Shown: positions 2,938-14,354 of the stretch, piece by piece
How positions within the stretch are numbered: the stretch's first letter is position 1
How the letters are laid out: each line of letters opens with the position of its first letter
From: a virus
Direction: 5' to 3' (one strand)
Virus record (IMG/VR): IMGVR_UViG_3300022874_000061
Span: 1-21,135 of that record
DNA length: 21,135 nucleotides
Translations under genes and position numbers: made by a program
The notes under the pieces: generated by a model
What the model was told of the DNA's origin: nothing
Database searches by the model: none
Seen by the model: the letters and a program-made list of their open reading frames with translations, nothing else

Positions 2938-3678
2938 ATGAGTAAAGTAGTTAAAAAAGAACTTGGCAGCTTTATCAAAAAACTTAATAAGTTAAAACTG
3001 GCTGACAAGATTGGAACGAGGGGTGATGTTGGGGAGATGCAGGAAGAGTTCATTTCGGCCATTGAGGAAATTGACGATGCTGGTAAGGCCGACAAAGTTG
3101 ATAAAGAAATAATTGATTATTATGAAGGACTTCTCGAAGAGGGCGAGCCCGAGAAAGAACCTGAGAAAGACGGTAAAGATGGTGAAGATGAAGTTGACCT
3201 TGACGAGTTAAAAGAAGAACTTGAGGATATGTCATTTAAAGAGTTAAAGGCATATATCGAAGAAGAAGACCTTGAACTTGAAACGAAAATTACAAAAAAG
3301 AAAGTTGATGATATTATCGAAGAAATTCTGGAGTTGGCTGGCGAAGAGGGCGAGCCCGAGCCTAAGGAGAAAGATAAGAAAAAAGATAAAAAGGCTGACA
3401 AAAAGAAAGACAAAAAGAAAGACAAAAAGAAAGACAAAAAAACTTCTAAAGTAAAAGGCAAACTTCCAAAAATGCTTTTAGAAGCGATCGAAGAGGGTGA
3501 CGCTACATGGGGTAGTCTGGCCGAATTGGTTGCTGACGAAAAAGATAAAGAAGCGGAGAAGTGTATGGGTATAGTTATTCGGGTAGTTAGCCGAAAGATA
3601 TCCAAGGTTGTGCCTATTGTTTTGACTATGTCGGGTGATGAAACGGAAGCTACTTTTAAATTATCAGAGGAGGAATAA
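2938..3678 (+). CDS. Acidic/lysine-rich protein with SAP/HeH-like motif
   Basis: The function is unknown. Start ATG 2938 follows AAGGAG at good spacing. Residues 1-65 are a charged helical region, and 66-90 are Glu/Pro/Asp-rich. Residues ~97-135 read like a small helix-extension-helix module of the SAP/HeH/Rho-N type, with the core DMSFKELKAYIEEEDLEL. Residues 143-168 are a lysine tract built of KKKDKK repeats. The C-terminal ~75 residues look globular, with a hydrophobic segment (CMGIVIRVVSRKISKVVPIVL). EEGEPE occurs twice, each time encoded by the same 18 bases (3136 and 3343). A very similar acidic helix module ends the SSB encoded at 15077, which suggests a nucleic-acid-linked role here too. 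A hairpin terminator follows the gene. Confidence 0.75.
   Translation: MSKVVKKELGSFIKKLNKLKLADKIGTRGDVGEMQEEFISAIEEIDDAGKADKVDKEIIDYYEGLLEEGEPEKEPEKDGKDGEDEVDLDELKEELEDMSFKELKAYIEEEDLELETKITKKKVDDIIEEILELAGEEGEPEPKEKDKKKDKKADKKKDKKKDKKKDKKTSKVKGKLPKMLLEAIEEGDATWGSLAELVADEKDKEAEKCMGIVIRVVSRKISKVVPIVLTMSGDETEATFKLSEEE
3397..3432 (+). repeat. Three tandem 12-base repeats inside a coding region
   Basis: GACAAAAAGAAA occurs three times in a row and a fourth copy begins at 3433. The unit is four codons (DKKK), so copy-number change would lengthen or shorten the lysine tract without shifting the frame. Confidence 0.85.
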
Positions 3679-3766: not shown

Positions 3767-3793
3767 TTGTATGTTAGGAGGGCAATAATAGTT

Positions 3794-4591
3794 ATGGCAA
3801 AAACATTAAAGAAAAAAGATAATATTTTCAAAACGAAATCTTTCCTTAGAATATTAAAGGAAATTTATTTGGGCGGATTGTTAGAAGAATGTATGGTATC
3901 TATAAACTATGGGAGGGCAAAAGTAGAAGCAGTAGATATTACCAATTCCCTTATCGTTATTTGTAAGGGTGCTGTTGCTTCTAAAGACGTAAGCGGCCAG
4001 TTAGGACTTGGAAATTTAGATCTTCTTATTAAGTTCTTATCTTCAGTAGAAGACCAGAAACTCTTTTTTAAATACAAGAAGGACGGGTCAAGCTTTGAAC
4101 TTTCAAGAAAAGATAAACGAAGAAAACTGAATTACTTATTAACTCAGCCAGAACTAATCGCTACTCAGTTACAGGTAGATGAGGATTCTGATGATAAGGA
4201 AGACCCTTACTTAAAGATGAAGAAGATGATGGAGTATAATGTAGAATTATCTGCTTCATTCATGAAAGATTTTCTTACGTATATTGGCCTGTTAAAAACG
4301 AAGGATGTCGTTCTTGAATTTGATGGGGCTGAGGAAATTGCTTTTATTTGTGGTGGATCAAATGACCATAAGTTTGAATTGGTATTAAGTAATGAAGTAG
4401 AAGGAGATGAAGTAGACCCATTTAGTCTTAAGGTTAACGGAGAACATCTTGCTCGAATTTTTAATACGATTGGTTTTGATGAAGATGAACCACCAGTATT
4501 ATCTTTTGCAGAAGAGAAACTTATAATGATAGAAGCTGAAGGTACGGTTTGGGCTCTTGTTCCGTTAACTGATTTGGAAAATGAAGATTAA
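3794..4591 (+). CDS. Sliding clamp (PCNA/gp45-like)
   Basis: This is probably the DNA polymerase processivity clamp, a ring that tethers the polymerase to DNA. At 265 residues it matches two-domain clamps such as PCNA or T4 gp45, not the ~366-residue bacterial beta clamp. The N-terminal half has a clamp-like strand-helix pattern (LGLGNLDLLIKFLSS). The end, with LKVNGEHLARIFNTI followed by VLSFAEEKLIMIEAEGTVWALVPL, has the typical closing strands of such clamps. No single motif proves the family; the two loader genes directly downstream make the call solid. I chose ATG 3794 because AGGAGG at 3777-3782 precedes it; the earlier in-frame ATG at 3767 abuts the terminator hairpin and has no ribosome binding site. 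Confidence 0.75.
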   Translation: MAKTLKKKDNIFKTKSFLRILKEIYLGGLLEECMVSINYGRAKVEAVDITNSLIVICKGAVASKDVSGQLGLGNLDLLIKFLSSVEDQKLFFKYKKDGSSFELSRKDKRRKLNYLLTQPELIATQLQVDEDSDDKEDPYLKMKKMMEYNVELSASFMKDFLTYIGLLKTKDVVLEFDGAEEIAFICGGSNDHKFELVLSNEVEGDEVDPFSLKVNGEHLARIFNTIGFDEDEPPVLSFAEEKLIMIEAEGTVWALVPLTDLENED

Positions 4592-4602: not shown

Positions 4603-5520
4603 TTGAAGAATCTTATATGGTACGAAAAGTTTCGGCCTGACAGTTTATCTTCAATGACCTTACCACTAAAGGCAAAGAAAATATTTAGAGAATATATAAG
4701 AGAAAAACAAATTCCTCATGTACTTTTCTATGGACCGCCTGGAAGTGGTAAGACTACATTGGCTATGATTCTTTTGAAAGCAACTGCTTCGAGGAAGTTA
4801 ATTCTCAATGCAAGTAGTGGTGATCGAGGAATAGCAACAATTAAAATAAAAGTAAAACAATTTGCTACTGCCAAGAGGACAAGTTCTGATAAATTGAATG
4901 TCGTTTTTTTAGACGAAGCAGACGGTCTTACTTTTGATGCACAAATGGCATTGAAAAATACGGTAGAGACCTACTATAAAAATTGTCGTTTTATATTTAC
5001 TTGCAATCATATTGACATGGTCATTCCGGAGATTGCTTCCAGATGTATTCCTTTTCAGTTTGATACTTATCCTAAGGACAAACTTCTTATTCATCTTAAA
5101 AAGATGCTGGACAAAGAAGGGATTAAATATAAAGAAAAAAGTATTAACAGGATAATAGAACTTTGCTATCCCGATATCAGGTCTATTATTAATCTTCTTC
5201 AGAAAAATAGTATCGGCAAGAAGCTTGAAGATTCCGAAGTCTTGATAGACCTGAATTTATTTAGAGAATTTTTATTAGACGGGAACTTGTTTAAGATAAG
5301 AGAAATATTTAATGGGAAGATGGATTTTGTATGGGTGTATAAATATCTGTTCAATATTTTTATCCCTGAGTTTTTGGATAAAGATGTTAAGTCTGAGGCG
5401 GCAATTATTACTGCTGGCTATCTTTATAAAGATAGGACTGTTCCAGATAAGGAAATCAATTGTACCGCTTGTTGTCTTGAGTTAATGGATTTAATGGAAG
5501 TAAATATTTCTTTTGGATAA
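4603..5520 (+). CDS. Clamp loader ATPase (RFC small subunit/gp44-like)
   Basis: An AAA+ ATPase that opens the sliding clamp and places it at primer-template junctions. The RFC N-terminal box is present (WYEKFRPDSL, 6-15). Walker A GPPGSGKT lies at 44-51, Walker B is VVFLDEAD with the RFC-type DEAD form, and the SRC arginine-finger motif is present (ASRCIPFQF). At 305 residues it is close to T4 gp44 and archaeal RFC-S. Translation starts at TTG 4603: AAGGAG lies 7 bases before it, and the conserved RFC box begins only a few residues later, so the next ATG (4654) would cut into the domain. It follows the clamp by 11 bases. Confidence 0.92.
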   Translation: MKNLIWYEKFRPDSLSSMTLPLKAKKIFREYIREKQIPHVLFYGPPGSGKTTLAMILLKATASRKLILNASSGDRGIATIKIKVKQFATAKRTSSDKLNVVFLDEADGLTFDAQMALKNTVETYYKNCRFIFTCNHIDMVIPEIASRCIPFQFDTYPKDKLLIHLKKMLDKEGIKYKEKSINRIIELCYPDIRSIINLLQKNSIGKKLEDSEVLIDLNLFREFLLDGNLFKIREIFNGKMDFVWVYKYLFNIFIPEFLDKDVKSEAAIITAGYLYKDRTVPDKEINCTACCLELMDLMEVNISFG

Positions 5521-5527
5521 AAACAAA

Positions 5528-5920
5528 ATGAAAAAGAAAAATAATAGCAATAATAGTTTTGGTATAGCAAGTGCTCTTTTTACAAAAGAAGAAGTGAAAG
5601 TACAGAACGAATTTATGGTTAACAGAATTCTTTCTTTTCAGAAAGGAACCATTTTGTTTTCTATCGATATGAATAGGTTCGTATCTCGTCTGCCGTCTTG
5701 GGCAAGAGATACTCTTTATAATTTAGGGGTTCCAAAACAAAAGAATGCACCATATCTTAAATATCCCAAGAGGAAGAAAAAACAGAATCCAAAACTCTTA
5801 GCCAAGATTAGTAGTACTTTTTGTTGCAATGGATATCATTCGCAACAAATAATTGACATTCTTAAAAGGCATAAAGGGAAGCCACCAGAATCTTATTATG
5901 GATTAAAGAAAGGGGAATGA
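5528..5920 (+). CDS. Clamp loader small partner (gp62-like, Phage_clamp_A type)
   Basis: Probably the non-ATPase partner of the loader, equivalent to T4 gp62. The diagnostic stretch is NEFMVNRILSFQKGTILFS followed by IDMN, which parallels FMVENALSQFPECMPAVYA and MN in T4 gp62. The KLLAKISSTFCCNG...IIDILKRHKG tail parallels LLAKRYQVN...YKSILTKNG. At ~130 residues it is shorter than gp62 (187), though short forms are common in phages. The start is ambiguous: ATG 5528 lies just after the loader stop with little ribosome binding site, and TTG 5513 would overlap the loader gene by 8 bases. Either way the gene is coupled to its partner. Confidence 0.7.
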   Translation: MKKKNNSNNSFGIASALFTKEEVKVQNEFMVNRILSFQKGTILFSIDMNRFVSRLPSWARDTLYNLGVPKQKNAPYLKYPKRKKKQNPKLLAKISSTFCCNGYHSQQIIDILKRHKGKPPESYYGLKKGE

Positions 5921-6307
5921 ATGGACATAACGAAGTTTGTCAATAAAAGAAGTAAGGAAGAAAATCAAATGATAAGATTTGAAAAGATGATTCTTCCTTC
6001 TACTACAAAGCAAGAACAGAGAGTATTGGAAATGCATCTTTTAAAACCAATGCCGATTCCAAAGTACAAGGGGACTAAAACAGGGATGTCAAATTTCAAG
6101 AAGCGAACTCTTTTCTTTTCTTTTCCCAGTCCCGATTTTATTAAGAGGTTGGGGAAGATTGTTACTATAAATTCTTACATAGAAAATAATTGTCACGAAG
6201 TATTATTTTTAACGGAGCTGATTCGCTTGATAGAGGAAGGAAGAATTAAATGGGATGGCAAAAAGTATTCTTTCAGAACCCGTAGGGGAGGCAAGATAAG
6301 GTTATGA
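5921..6307 (+). CDS. Hypothetical small basic protein
   Basis: I do not recognise this 128-residue protein. ATG 5921 directly follows the TGA of the gene before, with AAAGGGGA as ribosome binding site, and its own TGA overlaps the next ATG (6304). It is basic, with a proline-rich central part (LKPMPIPKYKG), a predicted helix (HEVLFLTELIRLIEEGRI) and a basic tail (RTRRGGKIRL). No transmembrane or catalytic motif is visible. It sits exactly between the clamp-loader genes and the radical SAM operon. Confidence 0.7.
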   Translation: MDITKFVNKRSKEENQMIRFEKMILPSTTKQEQRVLEMHLLKPMPIPKYKGTKTGMSNFKKRTLFFSFPSPDFIKRLGKIVTINSYIENNCHEVLFLTELIRLIEEGRIKWDGKKYSFRTRRGGKIRL

Positions 6308-7731
6308 AAAAAGAATCGTTTGATGATTTAAAAAAGAAAGTAACAAGAGACTCTCAGGAATTTATTCGAGAAAATAGGGGGATGAAAATAGACAAATCCA
6401 GAACTTATATCAGTCCGAGAATAAGTTCTGAGTTTATGGATTGTTCTTTACCGATGACCTTCGACCAATATTCTTATTGCTCGATGGGGTGTACATACTG
6501 TTTTGCATATTATATGAAAAGCCAAAATCCAAGCTTTTCTCATAAGTTACATTCTGTAGACGAGAAGAAGCTTGTTGCTACTATTAAGGGAAAGCCTCCA
6601 ACAAGTAGACTCAAGGCAATGCATAAGAACTTTTTTTCTAAGAGGTTTGTATTTCATTGGGGTGGTCTTGCTTCTCCTTTCTGTAATTTTGAAAAAGTTA
6701 ATGGAGTCGGGTATAAGATTGTTTCTGCTTTGGGAAAAGAAAGCTATCCAACTCTTTTTAGTTTTAAGGGATCGGCTGTTTTCCGTCCGAACTTTGAGAA
6801 GTTATTTACAAAATATGCACATCAAAAGAATTTTGCTTTTCAGGTATCTATTGTTTGTCCTTCAGATGAAATGAGTAAGCAAGTAGAAATAGGAGTCCCT
6901 GTTACGAGCAGAAGGATAAAGGCATTAAAACATTTATCAGATATGGGGTACTATACCGTACTTCGTCTTCGACCTTTTATTATAGGAATTTCTGATATTG
7001 GTCTTGACGATTTACTTCATCAAGCAAAAGAAGCGGGAATAAATGCGATAAGTACAGAGTTCATGGCAATTGACCAAAGGCATAATGAGCATATTGCTAA
7101 GAGGTATAAATGGCTTGGAGAATTAACAGGAACAAAAGATTTGTTAGAATATTTTAAAGCATTAAGTCCAAGTGAACGAGGCGGATACATGCGACTTAAC
7201 AGATTAGTGAAAGAGAAGATTGTAAAAAAGATGTATACGTTTTGTGTAGATAATGATATTTTATTTTCATGTAGTGACCCCGACTATAAAGAGTTAGGGA
7301 TGTCTGGTTGTTGTTGTGGGTTGCCTGATACCTATAAAGAGAATAAGGAAATGGAAAATTGGGGAAAGAGCCAATTGACTTACGCCCTAAAAGAAGCCAG
7401 AAAAAAATTTCATCGTGATGGTAAAATTGTTCATTTTAAATTTAGCAAAGTTTTTGATCCAAAGGAAAGTCCATTTTTAAGCGACTCTACTTTTGGTCAG
7501 GATCATATTGGTGTTACAGGAATGACTGCAAGTCAGAGGCGAGGTATAACGTACTTAGATTTTGCAAGGGAAACGTGGAATAATCTCAGGTCTCCTGGAA
7601 ATCCAAGAAATTATTTTCATGGAAAAATGATGCCTATTAGAATGGACGAAGAAGATAATTATGTTTACGTCTATAATCCAAGTGAGTACGAGGCCAGATG
7701 GGTAAAGGAAGGAATTGATTTAACGAAGTAG
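6304..7731 (+). CDS. Radical SAM enzyme, SplB-like
   Basis: The radical SAM cluster motif is C59-X3-C63-X2-C66 (YCSMGCTYCFAY), which would hold a 4Fe-4S cluster and cleave S-adenosylmethionine. Later elements follow the layout of the SplB / DNA repair photolyase-like family (COG1533): HWGGLASPFCNFEK where that family has a DP(Y/F)...E element, FKGSAVF, a VSIVCPSDE strand, then VEIGVPVTSRRIKALKHLSD and LRLRPFIIG. At 475 residues it is longer than classical spore photoproduct lyase (~340). A C-terminal region with several Cys (SGCCCG near 338-343) may bind metal. It could repair or modify a DNA base or another substrate; the sequence does not say which. It ends in TAG, with a 25-base gap to the next gene. 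Confidence 0.85.
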   Translation: MKKESFDDLKKKVTRDSQEFIRENRGMKIDKSRTYISPRISSEFMDCSLPMTFDQYSYCSMGCTYCFAYYMKSQNPSFSHKLHSVDEKKLVATIKGKPPTSRLKAMHKNFFSKRFVFHWGGLASPFCNFEKVNGVGYKIVSALGKESYPTLFSFKGSAVFRPNFEKLFTKYAHQKNFAFQVSIVCPSDEMSKQVEIGVPVTSRRIKALKHLSDMGYYTVLRLRPFIIGISDIGLDDLLHQAKEAGINAISTEFMAIDQRHNEHIAKRYKWLGELTGTKDLLEYFKALSPSERGGYMRLNRLVKEKIVKKMYTFCVDNDILFSCSDPDYKELGMSGCCCGLPDTYKENKEMENWGKSQLTYALKEARKKFHRDGKIVHFKFSKVFDPKESPFLSDSTFGQDHIGVTGMTASQRRGITYLDFARETWNNLRSPGNPRNYFHGKMMPIRMDEEDNYVYVYNPSEYEARWVKEGIDLTK

Positions 7732-7756
7732 AAGAAGTAGTAGGGGAATTAAAATT

Positions 7757-8593
7757 ATGAAGATAGCCATATATATACCAAGCCATAGAAGACCAGAAAA
7801 ACAAAGAACCTTTAATTTTATACCTAAAAGATTAATAAAAAATACTTTCATTGTGGTTGATAAAAAAGATTTTAAAAGATATAAAGAACTATATGGGTCG
7901 AATGTTATAGAATGTCCTGAGAAGGGGATATGTAAAACAAGACAATGGATTCTTGAGAACAGTAAAAGGAAATATGCATTGATGTTAGATGATGATATGG
8001 ATTTTTCTGTTCGTAATAAAGAATTAAAATTGCATAGGTGTAGTCCTAAAGAATTTGCTGAGATGGTTATGCTCCTTGAAGGCTGGCTCGAAGAGGGATT
8101 GGTACATGTAGGAATAAGTCAAAGATTCGGTAACAATAGAATAGAGGAAGATTATCTGGAAGTTACAAGAATGAATAATGCGTATGCGTATAATTGCGAA
8201 AAGATGATTGAGTTAAAAGAAAAGCATAATGTATCATTTGATTCTCTTGAAAACAAGCATGGTAAGCAGCTTGTTATGGAAGACTTTTTAGTAACGCTAT
8301 CATTGTTTCAACTTGGATTTAAAAATCGTGTTACGTATAAGTATGTATGGAGCCAAAATCAGAGTGGTGCTGATGGAGGTTGCTCTTTATACAGAACATC
8401 TAAAATGCAAAAAGAAAGTGCTATTTTATTAGCACAAAAGTTTCCAAGATACGTAAGGGTAGTTAAAAAAGAAAGTTCAAAAGTATGGAAAGGTTTTGAT
8501 AGCAAAGTAAGAATCGACGTCATTATACAATGGAAGAAAAGTTTTAATGAAAAGGGAAGGGCGAATGGAGGAATTAGATCATGGCTCAAATAG
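7757..8593 (+). CDS. Probable glycosyltransferase, GT-A type, resembling TET-associated GT
   Basis: The protein opens with a Rossmann-like strand and loop KIAIYIPSHRRPEKQRT (2-18), continues with FIVVD (31-35), and has an acidic triad DDD (78-80) in ALMLDDDMDF, placed as the metal/nucleotide-sugar-binding DXD motif of GT-A enzymes. MEDFLVTLSLFQLGF downstream fits the second acidic region. This pattern, IPSxxR...DDD, is what I know from the TET/JBP-associated glycosyltransferases (TAGT; relatives of the base J glycosyltransferase) proposed to glycosylate hydroxymethylated pyrimidines in phage DNA. A glycosyltransferase acting on another acceptor is the main alternative. No TET/JBP or hydroxymethylase gene is in the window. 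The gene overlaps the next by 13 bases. Confidence 0.6.
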   Translation: MKIAIYIPSHRRPEKQRTFNFIPKRLIKNTFIVVDKKDFKRYKELYGSNVIECPEKGICKTRQWILENSKRKYALMLDDDMDFSVRNKELKLHRCSPKEFAEMVMLLEGWLEEGLVHVGISQRFGNNRIEEDYLEVTRMNNAYAYNCEKMIELKEKHNVSFDSLENKHGKQLVMEDFLVTLSLFQLGFKNRVTYKYVWSQNQSGADGGCSLYRTSKMQKESAILLAQKFPRYVRVVKKESSKVWKGFDSKVRIDVIIQWKKSFNEKGRANGGIRSWLK

Positions 8594-9363
8594 AATATAG
8601 ACTCTTTTTCCAAAGAAGGTCTGGTGGCCATGCGATTGTTGAATGGGTCGCATCTCATTTTGAAGAATCGGGCGTATTAATTAATTCTCTTCGGCCGAAT
8701 GTAAAGTGGAGTCGTCCAACCAAGTATTGGAATATAAAATATCCGTTCCATAATGCGAATAACGAAATCCAATTGAGAGAATATGAAAGGGGAAGATTGA
8801 AAATATCTCATTCGTTTGTTATTACTACATACGAAGACCCGTTAAGATATTCAGATGGCCTGTATAGGCATAAAAAATATGGGATAATAAATAGTCACAT
8901 TAAATATATTATTGTCGTTCGAGACGTATATAACTATGTCGCAAGCCGATTAAAATTTGATAGCAGACATAAAAAATTCACTCCTCCTGGATGGTATTCC
9001 GAATGCATTGCTCATTGGAAAAAACTTCTTCTTAATAAAAACTTTAATTTTTGTATTAGATTAAACTATAATGACTGGTTGACTAAAAAGAAATATCGTA
9101 TTAAAATTGCGAAGAGATTGGGGCTTCCGAATAATGATGGCCATATGGTAGATAAAATCCATAGTTATGGTGGGGGGTCTTCGTTTACCGGCATTAAAAA
9201 AACTGCAGCTCCTGAAGATCTTGTTAATAGGTATAAAGTCTACATAGAGGAGTTTGGAATTATATCTGAATTAAAAAAAGTTTTGAATGATAATGAGTTA
9301 CGCGAAATTAATCTTTCCGAATTTGGATGGGCGCTGGATAGAGAAGGGAAAATTATAAAATGA
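8581..9363 (+). CDS. Sulfotransferase-like protein
   Basis: Two hallmarks of PAPS-dependent sulfotransferases are visible. An N-terminal 5'-phosphosulfate loop-like segment, RRSGGHAIVEWV (12-23), follows the first strand. A 3'-phosphate-binding segment, YIIVVRDVYNYVASRLK (109-125), has the expected Arg (114) and Ser (122). The remaining ~100 residues include LNYNDWL and a glycine/serine loop GGGSSFTG (~197-204). At 260 residues it is in the usual size range. ATG 8581 has GGAGG upstream and overlaps the glycosyltransferase end; the stop overlaps the next start as ATGA. APS kinase, which makes the PAPS cofactor, is two genes downstream in the same operon, which strongly supports the assignment. 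The acceptor is unknown. Confidence 0.7.
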   Translation: MAQIEYRLFFQRRSGGHAIVEWVASHFEESGVLINSLRPNVKWSRPTKYWNIKYPFHNANNEIQLREYERGRLKISHSFVITTYEDPLRYSDGLYRHKKYGIINSHIKYIIVVRDVYNYVASRLKFDSRHKKFTPPGWYSECIAHWKKLLLNKNFNFCIRLNYNDWLTKKKYRIKIAKRLGLPNNDGHMVDKIHSYGGGSSFTGIKKTAAPEDLVNRYKVYIEEFGIISELKKVLNDNELREINLSEFGWALDREGKIIK

Positions 9364-10328
9364 AAGAAAAACAAGAACCACCATTTGCAATACAAGTTGA
9401 GCTTACAGAAGGCTGTAATTTATTTTGTAAATTTTGTGGTATACGTGGCATAAGAAAAAAACCAAACGAATGTAAATTTATGTCGTTAGAATGTAGTAAA
9501 AATATCGCAAAGCAAATTGGTGCAACAAAATGGGGGTCACGTATTGAGTTTGCTATGCATGGCGAGCCTACCTTAAATCCAAGACATTTAGAAATTATAA
9601 AAATATTTAGAAGTTATCTTCCACAAAACCAATTAACGATGTTGACGAACGGGATTGGACTTCTTCCTTCGCCAAAAGAAAAAGTAAAAAGATTATTTTC
9701 TAATGGAATAAATATTCTTGGTATAGATGATTATAGTCATAATCCATTCTCAAAGAAAATCAAATCAAAAGTAAAAGGCGAAGAATATCCTGGAGGTGAA
9801 AGCCCACATAAAAAGTTTCGAATCGATACCAAAAAAGTTATCTATATAAAAGATATACAAGATGCTAAAACTGGGGGGCATAGCGTTTTGAATAATCATT
9901 GTGGGTGTGCCGCTCCTTCATTATTTTCTCCAATGAAGAAGAGATGCGCAAAGCCGTTTAGGGAATTGAGTATTAGATGGGATGGTAAGATTGCTATTTG
10001 TTGTAATGATTGGAGGGGGCATTACTATTGTGGAGAAGTAAAAAAGGAAGGGAACTTAGACGATATTTGGAACGGCAAGGAATTCGATATCGCAAGAAAA
10101 TTATTATACGATAGAAACAGGAATTTCATACCATGCAAATGGTGTGATGCAATATCTTACAGGGTTGGATTCTTACCGGACAAAATGGGTAAAGCAACAT
10201 TGCCAATACCTACAAAAGAAGAAGTAGACTGGGCACGAGAAGAAAATACAGTTGACAAAACAATGTCAGAAATAATTGCAAGGCCATGGGAAAAAAATAA
10301 AAGAGTTGGGATTAGGGAATTGATATGA
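9360..10328 (+). CDS. Radical SAM protein with SPASM-like C-terminus
   Basis: The N-terminal motif C19-X3-C23-X2-C26 (TEGCNLFCKFC) is a canonical radical SAM cluster site, followed by HGEPTLNP (68-74), which corresponds to the usual GGEP motif, and MLTNGIG. The C-terminal half carries many more cysteines (181, 183, 196, 214, 215, 224, 259, 262) around a DGKIAICCNDW element and a DDIWNGKEF element, which match SPASM-type auxiliary cluster domains found in peptide, sugar or alcohol-modifying radical SAM enzymes. Its substrate is unknown. It is joined by 4-base overlaps to the sulfotransferase-like gene before and to APS kinase after, so the three proteins are probably made together. Confidence 0.85.
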   Translation: MKEKQEPPFAIQVELTEGCNLFCKFCGIRGIRKKPNECKFMSLECSKNIAKQIGATKWGSRIEFAMHGEPTLNPRHLEIIKIFRSYLPQNQLTMLTNGIGLLPSPKEKVKRLFSNGINILGIDDYSHNPFSKKIKSKVKGEEYPGGESPHKKFRIDTKKVIYIKDIQDAKTGGHSVLNNHCGCAAPSLFSPMKKRCAKPFRELSIRWDGKIAICCNDWRGHYYCGEVKKEGNLDDIWNGKEFDIARKLLYDRNRNFIPCKWCDAISYRVGFLPDKMGKATLPIPTKEEVDWAREENTVDKTMSEIIARPWEKNKRVGIRELI

Positions 10329-10930
10329 ATAATATTTTTCCTTCTCCATCATCTGTTTCTACTGTTGATCGGTATCTATTAAATGGTCATAGCGGAGGTC
10401 TGCTCTGGTTCACGGGTCTATCTGGAAGTGGAAAGTCCACCCTTGCTCATGCTGTTGAAGAAAAGTTGTATTCCCTTTGCGTGTGCAGTTATGTTCTTGA
10501 TGGAGATAATATTAGAACGGGATTAAATAAGGATTTAACTTTAAGCTCTGAAGACAGAAAAGAGAATGTTCGCCGTATTGCCGAGGTGTCCAAAATTATG
10601 GTGGATGCGGGATTGCTCGTTTTTGCCGCTTTTATTACTCCATATAAGCAAAGCAGAGAATACGTACGCAGGTTAATGACTGGTTGGCCTTGTTATGAAG
10701 TATATATTAAATGTAGTATTGAAGAATGTGCAAAGCGTGATCCAAAAGGTCTTTATGAAAAGGGTCGCATGGGTGAAATAATAAATATGACGGGAATTTC
10801 TGCGCCTTATGAAATTCCTGAACATTCTGATTTTATTATCGCTACAGATAAACTTAATTTGCAGCAATGTGTGGATGAGGTAATTGAATTTTTGCTAAAA
10901 CAAGGGTTGATTGATGTAGGCTCATGTTGA
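10325..10930 (+). CDS. cysC: Adenylylsulfate (APS) kinase
   Basis: It phosphorylates adenosine 5'-phosphosulfate with ATP to give PAPS, the activated sulfate donor. The match to bacterial CysC runs along the whole 201 residues: LLWFTGLSGSGKSTLA with Walker A at 31-38, DGDNIRTGL (59-67), EDRKENVRRIAEV, AFITPYK, RDPKGLYEK (138-146) and MTGISAPYE (155-163). The residue matching the E. coli phosphoserine S109 (ISPHR) is T105 here (ITPYK). No ATP sulfurylase (CysD/CysN or Sat) is in the window, so APS would come from the host. PAPS could feed sulfate assimilation, but a sulfotransferase-like gene in the same operon suggests use in a transfer reaction. The stop lies inside a 22-base tandem repeat. 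Confidence 0.95.
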   Translation: MNNIFPSPSSVSTVDRYLLNGHSGGLLWFTGLSGSGKSTLAHAVEEKLYSLCVCSYVLDGDNIRTGLNKDLTLSSEDRKENVRRIAEVSKIMVDAGLLVFAAFITPYKQSREYVRRLMTGWPCYEVYIKCSIEECAKRDPKGLYEKGRMGEIINMTGISAPYEIPEHSDFIIATDKLNLQQCVDEVIEFLLKQGLIDVGSC

Positions 10931-10994: not shown

Positions 10995-13900
10995 ATGGAA
11001 AATAAAAACTTCACCCATCTTCATTTGCATAGTGAATATAGCGTTCTTGACGGAGTAGGAACGGTAGATGCCTATGCAAAAAAGGCTTCTGAAATGGGGT
11101 TCAAATATCTTGCTCTTACAGACCATGGGTCTATAAATGGGTTAATTGAATTTCAGAAAGCTTGCGATAAATATAATATTTCTCCAATACTTGGTTGTGA
11201 AGCCTATATCGTTCCAGATGCAAAAGTAAAAAATGATAAGAGGCGAGGGCATATTTTACTTTTGGTTAAGAATCAAGAAGGCTTTAATAATTTATGTAGA
11301 TTACTTACATATGCTAATTTAGAAGGGCTTTATTATAGGCCAAGAATAGATTATAAAATGCTTCTAAAACATTGCGAAGGGTTGGTTGTTTCTACTGCTT
11401 GTTGTAGTTCGTTTTTAATAAAGTGCAAAGAAGGAGAAAAGTTTTTTTATGATTTGTTAGATAAGATTGGAGAGGATTTATATTGTGAAGTAATGCCTCA
11501 TCAATTAGATGGGCAAATAAAAGCAAACAAATTAAATATTCGTCTTGCGAAAAAATCAGGCTGTAAAATTATAGCGACAAACGATAGCCATTATATACAA
11601 AGAAGTGATTGGAAAGCACAGGAAGTACTTCTTGCTATTCAAACAAAAAAATTGTGGAGTGATCCCAATAGATGGAAATTCGATATTAGAGGATTGCATC
11701 TACGATCTGTGTCAGAAATGATAAGGGCATTAAGAAAAGTAAATGCTTACAAAAAAGAATATCTTTTAAATACTATTGAGATAGCAGAGAAGTGCAGTTC
11801 TTTTAGAATTCCAAAACAAGAAATTCATTTACCAAGAGTCAAAGGGGTATTAAGAGAAAAGAAATTCTTTTGGGAACTATGTCTTGAAGGGTATAAAAAT
11901 AAGTTTAAGAAAGAAATAAGCGGAGGATATCTTTCTCGTCTAAAGGAAGAGTACAATCTTATCGTTAAGAAGAAATTCGCTCGTTATTTTCTTATTGTGT
12001 GGGAATTGGTTAAATGGTGTAAATCAAATGATATTTTAGTTGGTCCAGGAAGAGGATCAGCGGCAGGAAGCCTTATTGCATTTTTACTTGGAATTACTGC
12101 TATTGATCCGATTAAACATGGATTACTTTTTAGTAGATTTATTAACGAGGACAGAATTGACTATCCAGATATAGATGTAGATTTTGAGCATATTAAGGGG
12201 CATCTTGTAAAACAGCATCTTGAAACGATGTATGGAGATAGCCATATTGCTAACGTAAGTTCTTTTAATAGAATGAAGGCAAAGGCTGTTATAAAAGATG
12301 TAAGTAAAGTTTTTAGCGTACCTTTTGATGAAGTCAATAGTTTTACAGATTTAATTGAAGACAATGATGAACATACCGGAATACAAGAGTCTATCGATAA
12401 TTATCAAGAAGGGGCAGAATTTAATGATAGACACCCTGAAGTTATTAGAATCGCTAAAGTTTTAGAAGGGCAAATAAAAAATTATTCTCAACACGCTGCG
12501 GCTTTGATTGTTTCTAATGAACCATTAGATCAGAGCGGAAGATGTAATTTGCTTAGGAGAAAAGACGTACTTCTTGTAAATTGGGAAAAGAATAATGCAG
12601 AATTTGTTGGCCTTATGAAATTAGATGCTTTGAGATTAAAGCTTCTTTCTATTTTTGGGGAAACATTAAAAAATATCAAAAATAATTCTAATCAAGATAT
12701 TGACTTTGACAAAATAAATATAGATGATAAGGCTGTTTATCAAGAAATTGATAATGGAAATACTGTTGGGCTGTTTCAGTTAAATACAAGGGCAACAACA
12801 AGTTTGATTGGTGAAGTTGGGGTTAAGAAATTTAATGATTTAAGAGATATTGTCGCTCTTGTTCGACCAGGAATTATGCAATCGGGAATGACTGCCGAAT
12901 ACATAAGAAGAAAACGAGGTGGTTCTTGGGAAACGAAACATAAAATATATGAATCTATTACTGCTGATACTCATGGGGTAGTTGTATTCCAAGAACAGGT
13001 GATGAAAGTTATTAGTGAAGTTGCTGGTTTGTCTTATTCTACTGCTGATAAAATTAGAAAGATAATTGGCAAGAAGAGAAGTAAAAAAGAATTCATGCCA
13101 TATAAGAAAAAATTTATTCGTGGATGTTTAAAACAAAAAACCCTTTCGAGAAAAGAAGCAGAAGAATTTTGGACTGGATTAGAAGAGCATTGTAGATATA
13201 GTTTTAATGCCAGCCATTCTGTTGCTTATGCTTTATTAGGATACCAGTCAGCGTGGTTAAAAAAATATTTTCCTACTGAATTTATTTGTGCGGCATTAAC
13301 TTTTGGTGCAAAGGATAAGAAATCGGTATTAATTGAAGAAGCGTATCGTTTAGGACTGACTGCTGTATTACCAAAGGTAGGCATAAGCGAGGCTACAAGG
13401 TGGGTCGCAAAAGAAGGTAAGTTATATATACCCTTCGTAGAAGTACGGGGTATAGGGGCTGTCAAGGCTGTTGAAATAGCTAATGCGGGAATAACTACTA
13501 ATGATATTAAGAAGTTTTTTACCAAGAAGAAATCAAATGTAGTTGTAAAGCAAAAAGGAGTGTTAGGAAAAATCCTTAATAAGATTGGTTCTTATAATCA
13601 ATATGATAGTGTTCAGGTAGATGAAGAAGTAGAATCGTTTTTTGATTTTCGTATTGTTGTAAATTCTCAAGCCAGTTACAAAAAACTCTTTACTCTTTTT
13701 AATGGTAAGATTCGACTTGATGTAATTGATAAATTGTTAGCGGGTGACATAAAAGAAGTTAGAAAAGCACCGAAGTCGGCTTTAAGAGAAGTAGAGTTTT
13801 CGGGGCATGATAAGCTTATGGCCTGTTCTCGTTGTGATCTTAGGAAGGAGTGTAAAAGCCCAGTTACTCCAACCCCAGGAAAGTATAATATTGTGATTAT

Positions 13901-14354
13901 TGGTGAAGCTCCTGGAAAAGAAGAGGATAAACAAGGAATTGGTTTTGTTGGGCAGACAGGAAAATTATTATGGAAGAGTATAAATAGAAGAGGATATGAT
14001 AAAAGCTTATTTCATATTACAAATATTTGTAAGTGTTTTCCTTCTAAAACCAGAAAACCAATTACTTCACAAATAAAAAAATGCAGTACTTTTTTAAAAC
14101 GAGAGCTTGTAGAAGTACGGCCAGTGGTTATCTTAGCGTTTGGTAATACTTCTCTACAATTTTTTACTCAACAGAAAACAGGAATTATGAATTTAAGTGG
14201 AAAAGTTATATGGAACGAGGAGTATGGTGCGTGGGTCGTTTGGTGTTTACACCCGTCGGCAGTTCTTTACAATTCAGAGAATAAAAAGTACTTCAAAAAA
14301 GGACTAAATTCTTTTTTCAGATTGTTGAAGATTTTTGTACCAAGGAAAAGCTAA
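10995..14354 (+). CDS. dnaE: DNA polymerase III alpha (DnaE) fused to family-4-type uracil-DNA glycosylase
   Basis: A family C replicative polymerase with a second enzyme at its C-terminus. The PHP domain is intact at the N-terminus (HLHLHSEYS 8-16, DHGS 43-46, TNDSHY). The palm has GPGRGSAAGS, the catalytic PDIDVDF with D394 and D396, and a third Asp at 544 (KLDAL); FQEQVMKV and FNASHSVAYALLGYQSAWL mark the fingers, and VRGIGAVKAVEI a helix-hairpin-helix. The usual C-terminal OB/tau-binding part is not evident. From ~930 on the protein is a UDG: C944 and C947, GEAPG (970-974), GFVGQTGKLL, TNICKCFP with C1014, C1030, and LHPSA with H1086. CX2C...CX15C is the 4Fe-4S pattern of family 4 UDGs. 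The start has AGAAGG upstream. Confidence 0.93.
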   Translation: MENKNFTHLHLHSEYSVLDGVGTVDAYAKKASEMGFKYLALTDHGSINGLIEFQKACDKYNISPILGCEAYIVPDAKVKNDKRRGHILLLVKNQEGFNNLCRLLTYANLEGLYYRPRIDYKMLLKHCEGLVVSTACCSSFLIKCKEGEKFFYDLLDKIGEDLYCEVMPHQLDGQIKANKLNIRLAKKSGCKIIATNDSHYIQRSDWKAQEVLLAIQTKKLWSDPNRWKFDIRGLHLRSVSEMIRALRKVNAYKKEYLLNTIEIAEKCSSFRIPKQEIHLPRVKGVLREKKFFWELCLEGYKNKFKKEISGGYLSRLKEEYNLIVKKKFARYFLIVWELVKWCKSNDILVGPGRGSAAGSLIAFLLGITAIDPIKHGLLFSRFINEDRIDYPDIDVDFEHIKGHLVKQHLETMYGDSHIANVSSFNRMKAKAVIKDVSKVFSVPFDEVNSFTDLIEDNDEHTGIQESIDNYQEGAEFNDRHPEVIRIAKVLEGQIKNYSQHAAALIVSNEPLDQSGRCNLLRRKDVLLVNWEKNNAEFVGLMKLDALRLKLLSIFGETLKNIKNNSNQDIDFDKINIDDKAVYQEIDNGNTVGLFQLNTRATTSLIGEVGVKKFNDLRDIVALVRPGIMQSGMTAEYIRRKRGGSWETKHKIYESITADTHGVVVFQEQVMKVISEVAGLSYSTADKIRKIIGKKRSKKEFMPYKKKFIRGCLKQKTLSRKEAEEFWTGLEEHCRYSFNASHSVAYALLGYQSAWLKKYFPTEFICAALTFGAKDKKSVLIEEAYRLGLTAVLPKVGISEATRWVAKEGKLYIPFVEVRGIGAVKAVEIANAGITTNDIKKFFTKKKSNVVVKQKGVLGKILNKIGSYNQYDSVQVDEEVESFFDFRIVVNSQASYKKLFTLFNGKIRLDVIDKLLAGDIKEVRKAPKSALREVEFSGHDKLMACSRCDLRKECKSPVTPTPGKYNIVIIGEAPGKEEDKQGIGFVGQTGKLLWKSINRRGYDKSLFHITNICKCFPSKTRKPITSQIKKCSTFLKRELVEVRPVVILAFGNTSLQFFTQQKTGIMNLSGKVIWNEEYGAWVVWCLHPSAVLYNSENKKYFKKGLNSFFRLLKIFVPRKS

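Follow-up and report, generated by a model that had tools for sequence, protein, structure and literature searches.

The 21,135-nucleotide virus record IMGVR_UViG_3300022874_000061 of IMG/VR (positions 1 to 21,135, referred to at its full length as the window) carries a gene in which a family C (DnaE-type) replicative polymerase is fused to a C-terminal uracil-DNA glycosylase (UDG) domain of the iron-sulfur, family-4 type. The gene occupies positions 10995 to 14354 of the plus strand, on which its parts and the two clamp-loader genes described below also lie, as a single uninterrupted ATG frame of 1,119 codons. The first-pass annotation had proposed this order of PHP, palm, and fingers followed by a UDG, and the reading frame, Pfam, an AlphaFold model, and structural matches all agree with it. 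The same annotation knew of no well-described family C example; with 60 non-redundant DnaE-UDG fusions now collected, the architecture proves to be widespread yet barely described. Across these fusions the glycosylase active site has been altered repeatedly, and altered copies evolve under purifying selection.

Architecture of the fusion protein

The polymerase part begins with a PHP domain (residues 8 to 167; positions 11016 to 11495; Pfam E value, 3.2e-38), in which the positions aligned with those that we take to be the ligands of Taq alpha look retained. The palm, or nucleotidyltransferase, domain (residues 292 to 546; 11868 to 12632; Pfam DNA_pol3_alpha, 1.9e-75) contains the motif PDIDVDF at residues 391 to 397 and D544, and residues D392, D394, D396, and D544 are at least 90% invariant in A4, a 24-member alignment of relatives. 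The fingers follow (residues 551 to 714; 12645 to 13136; Pfam, 1.9e-43). The presence of the PHP domain, the palm with its three catalytic aspartates, and the fingers places the protein in family C. The remaining fingers and an HhH/beta-binding-like part, delimited by the match to Pol III alpha structures, extend to about residue 879 (13137 to 13631) and are followed by ESFFDF, a putative clamp-binding motif (residues 880 to 885; 13632 to 13649), by a linker between the two structural matches (residues 886 to 932; 13650 to 13790), and by the UDG domain (residues 933 to 1116; 13791 to 14342), which is supported by Pfam, NCBIfam, and structural matches. The Pfam matches occur in the order PHP, DNA_pol3_alpha, finger, and UDG (residues 964 to 1104; 2.9e-27), and all exceed their curated cut-offs.

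The AlphaFold model of the full protein, built on a 24-row alignment, has a mean predicted local distance difference test (pLDDT) score of 88.8 and a predicted template modeling score of 0.78. In the model, residues 4 to 889 superpose on Taq Pol III alpha (4iqj) with a Z score of 47.2 and a root mean square deviation (rmsd) of 4.2 over 853 aligned residues (VIA-align), so that the Pol III alpha match includes the HhH/beta-binding region. The Pfam family HHH_6 was not reported for the window protein; it was matched by 12 of the 24 A4 members. A phmmer search of the PDB returned Thermus and Escherichia coli Pol III alpha, followed by the family-4 UDGs of Sulfolobus, Thermus, and Thermotoga. From residue 811 to residue 966 the model is free of strands, hence no OB barrel lies between polymerase and UDG, and the Pfam matches of the 24 A4 members include no OB model. 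Because the strand-free stretch is followed directly by the UDG, the glycosylase occupies the place of the OB and tau-binding parts, as the first-pass annotation had supposed; lacking these parts of a full bacterial DnaE1, the polymerase is classed as a phage DnaE core. The gene encodes the phage's own family C replicase. An assembly join near position 13780, which had been raised as a possible artifact, is ruled out as far as the data allow. The full protein recurs at 100% identity in L002, L005, and L006, as do residues 463 to 1119 in L004 (four other IMG/VR metagenome records, whose sampling sites may coincide), and the architecture is shared by L003, a 65% relative of equal length, and by dozens of further relatives.

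Residues 934 to 1115 of the model superpose on the Thermus family-4 UDG 1ui1 with a Z score of 23.4 and an rmsd of 1.9 Å over 180 aligned residues (VIA-align). Family 4 is defined by the motifs GE(A/G)PG and HPS, and in UdgX and family-4 enzymes the motif A glutamate activates the nucleophile while an asparagine and the motif B histidine bind uracil, according to the parts consulted of PMC10359453. The alignment places motif A of the window protein, GEAPG, at residues 970 to 974 (E971; 13902 to 13916) and motif B, HPS, at residues 1086 to 1088 (H1086; 14250 to 14258); N1010, equivalent to the uracil-binding asparagine in the consulted parts of that source, lies with the cluster cysteine C1014 at 14022 to 14036. 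The remaining cluster cysteines are the CX2C pair C944 and C947 (13824 to 13835), invariant in 48/48 fusions of the window type, and C1030 (14082 to 14084), which completes CX15C from C1014. The domain thus has motif A, motif B, and the four-cysteine CX2C...CX15C pattern of family 4, all of which had been read from the sequence in the first pass, and the four cysteines predict a bound [4Fe-4S] cluster. The best-matching NCBIfam UDG models are type-4/family-4 models, TIGR00758 (curated cut-off, 125.3 bits) and NF040953 (250 bits), with scores of 114.2 and 116.4 bits for the whole protein and 117.8 and 120.0 bits for the UDG domain alone. Since these cut-offs are not reached, we use the label "family-4-type." In an alignment to 8iir, the GEQPG motif and KRRIH R-loop that mark UdgX were absent, the window protein having GEAPG and no R-loop insertion. 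Because E971, N1010, H1086, and the cluster cysteines are all kept, the window UDG is probably active in uracil excision.

Catalytic state and constraint across the fusions

The 60 fusions were gathered from two IMG/VR scans and other fetched loci (L handles), with near-identical rows (>96 to 98%) and rows covering fewer than 250 of 850 DnaE columns removed before counting. They comprise 48 fusions of the window type and 12 of a second, degenerate type. Among the window-type fusions, the glutamate/asparagine/histidine (E/N/H) catalytic set is intact in 37/48, which rules out a mainly dead structural domain, and altered in 11/48. Four of the altered copies read Q/N/H, two read E/T/H with motif A deleted, and five are singletons: G/F/S in L003, the closest non-identical relative of the window, and L/H/A, E/T/S, D/S/N, and E/N/G. 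All four cluster cysteines are nevertheless kept in every window-type fusion, including 11/11 altered ones. In the degenerate type, the full E/N/H set and the full set of four cysteines are each found in 0/12. An additional cysteine, C953, occurs in 31/37 intact fusions versus 4/27 rows of a stand-alone set that also includes a few contig-cut fusions (arginine occupies this position in 13/27). The first tryptophan of a WNEEY motif is invariant, altered copies included. The dead domain of L155 is still predicted to adopt the family-4 fold (pLDDT, 88.1; Z score of 19.8 to 1ui1, 2.0 Å over 166 residues), although the underlying alignment took in intact relatives and may be biased toward that fold.

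Constraint was estimated as the ratio of nonsynonymous to synonymous substitution rates (dN/dS) by NG86 with a codon bootstrap. In the pair L155/L149, in which both members have lost the motif A loop and carry the asparagine-to-threonine change, dN/dS was 0.097 (0.048 to 0.161) for the UDG and 0.103 (0.078 to 0.138) for the polymerase. Comparable values were obtained for the UDG versus the polymerase of degenerate Rhizobium phages (L008/L011, 0.137 versus 0.153; L008/L015, 0.145 versus 0.110; L011/L015, 0.105 versus 0.179) and of intact pairs (L111/L115, 0.116 versus 0.079; L111/L112, 0.050 versus 0.114). The pair formed by the window and L003 was uninformative, its synonymous sites in the UDG being saturated. 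Dead copies therefore evolve under purifying selection (dN/dS of about 0.1), as the polymerase does. Because the active site has been altered repeatedly while the cysteines are kept and dN/dS stays near 0.1, selection appears to act on something beyond canonical excision too.

Distribution, history, and genomic surroundings

When the full protein was searched by tblastn against 50,697 phage records, 1,391 matched, 11 of them with at least 80% coverage; the UDG part alone matched 53, including 10 Rhizobium and 2 Stenotrophomonas phages. The degenerate type is found in cultured phages of these two genera and in plasmids of Shinella and Acinetobacter baumannii, and is mostly annotated just as DNA polymerase III alpha. 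PF03167 was detected above its cut-off behind DnaE in 4/4 cultured phages checked (RHph_N1_10, 5.5e-10; B1VFA, 3.1e-11; RHEph10, 1.2e-9; BUCTxx99, 1.9e-6) and was not found in the DnaE of Streptomyces phage Moab. In PLSDB, 184/72,556 plasmid records, 137 of them from Acinetobacter, match the degenerate UDG of B1VFA; these matches are only in part fusions, and a fusion was confirmed in the two plasmids fetched, A. baumannii NZ_CP096896 and Shinella NZ_CP132310. An iterated profile for hidden UDGs in DnaE tails found the domain in 27/62 and none in the other 35. Among 14 matching loci in cellular genomes, 13 hold a UDG gene but show no DnaE in the stretch retrieved, and L094 holds a fusion, located on a 4-kb contig within a Syntrophaceae metagenome-assembled genome. 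The human fecal "phage" records L012 and L013 hold stand-alone UDGs next to bacterial-looking genes.

Several loci show rearranged or interrupted forms of the gene. In L034 (4023 to 10658) and L063 (1848 to 7666), a stand-alone UDG gene separates the two genes that encode the halves of a split DnaE, and a UDG gene precedes DnaE in L053 and L168; both arrangements are possible pre-fusion neighbors. In A. baumannii plasmid pABTJ2 (L174, 719 to 4962), a NUMOD4 endonuclease gene interrupts the DnaE-UDG gene, so that the downstream fragment, which combines the C-terminal end of the polymerase with the UDG, bears the annotation "uracil-DNA glycosylase family protein." In L007, an intein-like insertion of 248 residues (8305 to 9048) sits at FNKAHS, a motif in the fingers of DnaE; large intein-like insertions lie within the UDG in L035 (3031 to 7695; right behind the VVKC cluster cysteine) and L158 (2301 to 6932). 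In L003, genes that by eye resemble HNH endonucleases flank the DnaE-UDG gene (5445 to 6008 and 9370 to 10008).

A DnaE tree of 86 rows, for which 14 OB-type rows were thinned by hand, places the window in clade A (54 rows; Shimodaira-Hasegawa-like approximate likelihood ratio test [SH-aLRT] support, 100), with 38 intact members, 11 altered, 4 without a UDG, and 1 cut by a contig end. The degenerate type forms clade B (10 rows; SH-aLRT, 100). The intact or altered state requires a minimum of 8 changes on clade A (6 without the E-to-Q rows), and UDG presence or absence requires a minimum of 6 over the entire tree. The two clades lie apart, and grouping them together is not rejected (approximately unbiased test, p-AU of 0.243; 36 rows, LG+G4), so the fusion may have originated once or twice. 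In the UDG tree (87 rows), 50/52 clade A UDGs, counting the contig-cut or split rows L118, L136, L150, and L156, group together (SH-aLRT, 92), and 21 stand-alone and family A-fused UDGs form a separate set (98); only L027 and L030, both altered copies, fall outside the clade A group. Because the clade A UDGs group together, the domain and the polymerase have mostly traveled together.

The window has the makeup of a T4-like block of replication and recombination genes, with a family C polymerase in its midst; T4 itself uses a family B polymerase. The block encodes a helicase, a gp44-like clamp loader (4603 to 5520; phrog_168, 1.8e-65) and its gp62-like partner (5513 to 5920; phrog_225, 6.9e-9), a gp32-like single-stranded DNA-binding protein (SSB), a UvsX-like protein, a 5'-3' exonuclease, and gp46/47-like proteins. 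The loader type differs among relatives, being T4-like in the window and DnaX-like, as judged by eye, beside L007, L032, L039, and L040. Between the clamp loader and a gene for a 246-amino-acid lysine- and glutamate-rich low-complexity protein (2938 to 3678; no PHROG match) lies a gene for a 274-amino-acid protein (3767 to 4591; phrog_12062, function unknown), the position of which suggests a sliding clamp, with no sequence match to one (best PDB E value, 0.53). Directly upstream of the polymerase, positions 6304 to 10930 hold genes for a radical SAM protein (a weak match, below cut-off), a TET-associated glycosyltransferase (PF20691), one unassigned product, a radical SAM/SPASM protein, and an APS kinase (PF01583, 1.6e-57). 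The gene content of this modification-like cluster points to modification of DNA or of glycans, perhaps involving sulfate.

Candidate roles of the UDG domain

UDG domains have been joined to viral polymerases in other ways. Fusions to family A polymerases, the known precedent named in the first pass, include PaBG gp205, described in the parts consulted of PMC7412058, and the phiLo polymerase, whose released structure, 9qhs, matches a UDG and names a "modified template" in its title. These SPO1-type or Lupandier-group proteins likewise carry a family-4-like UDG on a phage polymerase, but the UDG is N-terminal to a family A enzyme, whereas that of the window is C-terminal to a family C enzyme, and the UDG tree separates the two. 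RHEph10 gp048 and its kin, together with the A. baumannii and Shinella plasmid DnaEs, share the C-terminal UDG-superfamily domain (PF03167) but belong to the separate clade B, with a degenerate UDG and incomplete catalytic and cysteine sets. The GenBank note of gp048 already reads "uracil-DNA glycosylase-like," and the DnaE-UDG order also shows in PHROG_4335, which matches a polymerase piece as well as the UDG. The family-4 UDGs of Thermus, Thermotoga, and Sulfolobus and UdgX have the same fold, motifs A and B, and four cluster cysteines but are stand-alone enzymes. The DnaEs of Streptomyces phages Moab, Peebs, and others are also family C polymerases with a PHP domain (about 34 to 35% identity), but their tails, OB-like as judged by eye, have no detectable UDG. 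In titles and abstracts of the open literature, with subscription papers outside the search, no paper was recognized as describing a DnaE-UDG fusion, and the parts consulted of PMC12926913, PMC8775771, PMC7824862, PMC2147016, and PMC9069017 do not mention one.

Vaccinia D4 belongs to the UNG type and lacks an iron-sulfur cluster. Like the window UDG, it is a UDG fold in a viral replicase; as part of the polymerase holoenzyme it is needed for processive replication, a role independent of its dispensable glycosylase activity, according to the parts consulted of PMC3946371. It is joined to E9 through A20 and not by fusion, and the likeness is one of analogy only. With D4 as precedent, DNA gripping or scanning is the simplest candidate for a role other than excision, and the retention of dead domains under purifying selection lends it indirect support. 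We consider it an even call that the UDG fold serves chiefly as a DNA-gripping or scanning module that is also able to excise uracil. The family-4-type [4Fe-4S] UDG, replacing the C-terminal OB and tau parts and tethered right after the HhH/clamp-binding part, would grip and scan DNA as it exits (or enters) the polymerase and thereby add processivity or DNA surveillance. The window protein, with its complete set of catalytic and cluster residues, would excise uracil in addition; across the clade catalysis would be optional, with selection keeping a folded, cluster-bearing module.

Several observations weigh against this proposal. That 37/48 retain full catalysis speaks for selection on excision itself in most cases. 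Low dN/dS indicates constraint and leaves the function unspecified; the L155/L149 linker is equally constrained (dN, 0.07; dS, 0.72), and the pair L010/L008 (B1VFA/N1_10) is looser, at 0.433 for the UDG and 0.313 for the polymerase. Finally, 4/54 clade A members (L032, L036, L039, and L040) have neither UDG nor OB, their DnaE stopping shortly past the HhH part, which rules out an indispensable module. No UDG reading frame was found near these DnaE genes and no PF03167 match on the entire records, which are incomplete. In three of the four, the protein terminates at, or only a few residues from, a YFxF-like motif that precedes the linker and reads ESFFDF in the window protein. A loose form of this pattern matches 44/53 clade members, and its position and composition suggest a clamp-binding peptide.

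Plain repair coupling, in which an ordinary active glycosylase carried on the replicase clears uracil near the fork and the altered copies are decaying, is a less probable though serious alternative. It fits the intact E/N/H set and motifs of the window protein and of most window-type fusions, as well as the gene content of the 18 clade A records searched: dUTPase (PF00692) was found in 0/18, the records being taken as incomplete, and ThyX in 6/18, including a 51-kb record carrying the identical protein, so that dUTP may enter DNA. Decay is at odds with the cysteines kept in all 11 altered copies and with the polymerase-like constraint in measurable pairs. An AP endonuclease of family PF01261 was likewise found above cut-off in 0/18 of these fragmentary records, other AP endonuclease families not being searched, and excision ahead of the fork would leave abasic sites facing the replicase. 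A sensor of uracil or modified bases, the pocket of which would probe template bases and trigger a stall or a signal with no need for excision, would have an effect comparable to the read-ahead of archaeal family B polymerases. The E-to-Q variants (GQDPG; L116, L117, L119, and L122), which retain the asparagine and histidine, the TET-associated glycosyltransferase and other modification-like genes of the window, and the title of 9qhs all speak for such a sensor; we nevertheless regard it as improbable, because L003, L027, L031, and clade B have lost the asparagine and histidine as well, leaving no pocket as known. It is also improbable, and slightly more so, that the UDG fold is a docking platform for a replisome partner (clamp loader, SSB, or helicase) in place of the tau-binding parts. 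The position of the UDG and the WNEEY tryptophan, invariant even in altered copies, would suit docking, but the flanking replisomes vary in clamp-loader type.

A bolder form of the gripping and scanning proposal, which we advance tentatively and hold to be somewhat doubtful, is that the iron-sulfur UDG fold is a regular component of the replisome, one that confers processivity by gripping DNA and replaces the OB/tau region of family C replicases in a large phage clade and, in more degenerate form, in phage-like plasmids, excision having been lost several times while the cluster was kept. If true, a cellular-type replicase would parallel poxvirus D4, with a fork-located cluster whose possible part in redox chemistry or DNA sensing would be open to testing. 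The naturally dead yet constrained copies offer a ready means of telling a role in DNA binding apart from the excision of uracil. Unions of UDG and polymerase were previously known from poxviruses, where they are noncovalent, and from phage family A fusions; the family C fusion is a third. Its occurrence in numerous phages from the environment, with relatives on plasmids of clinical Acinetobacter, implies that the pairing of UDG and replicase arose repeatedly.

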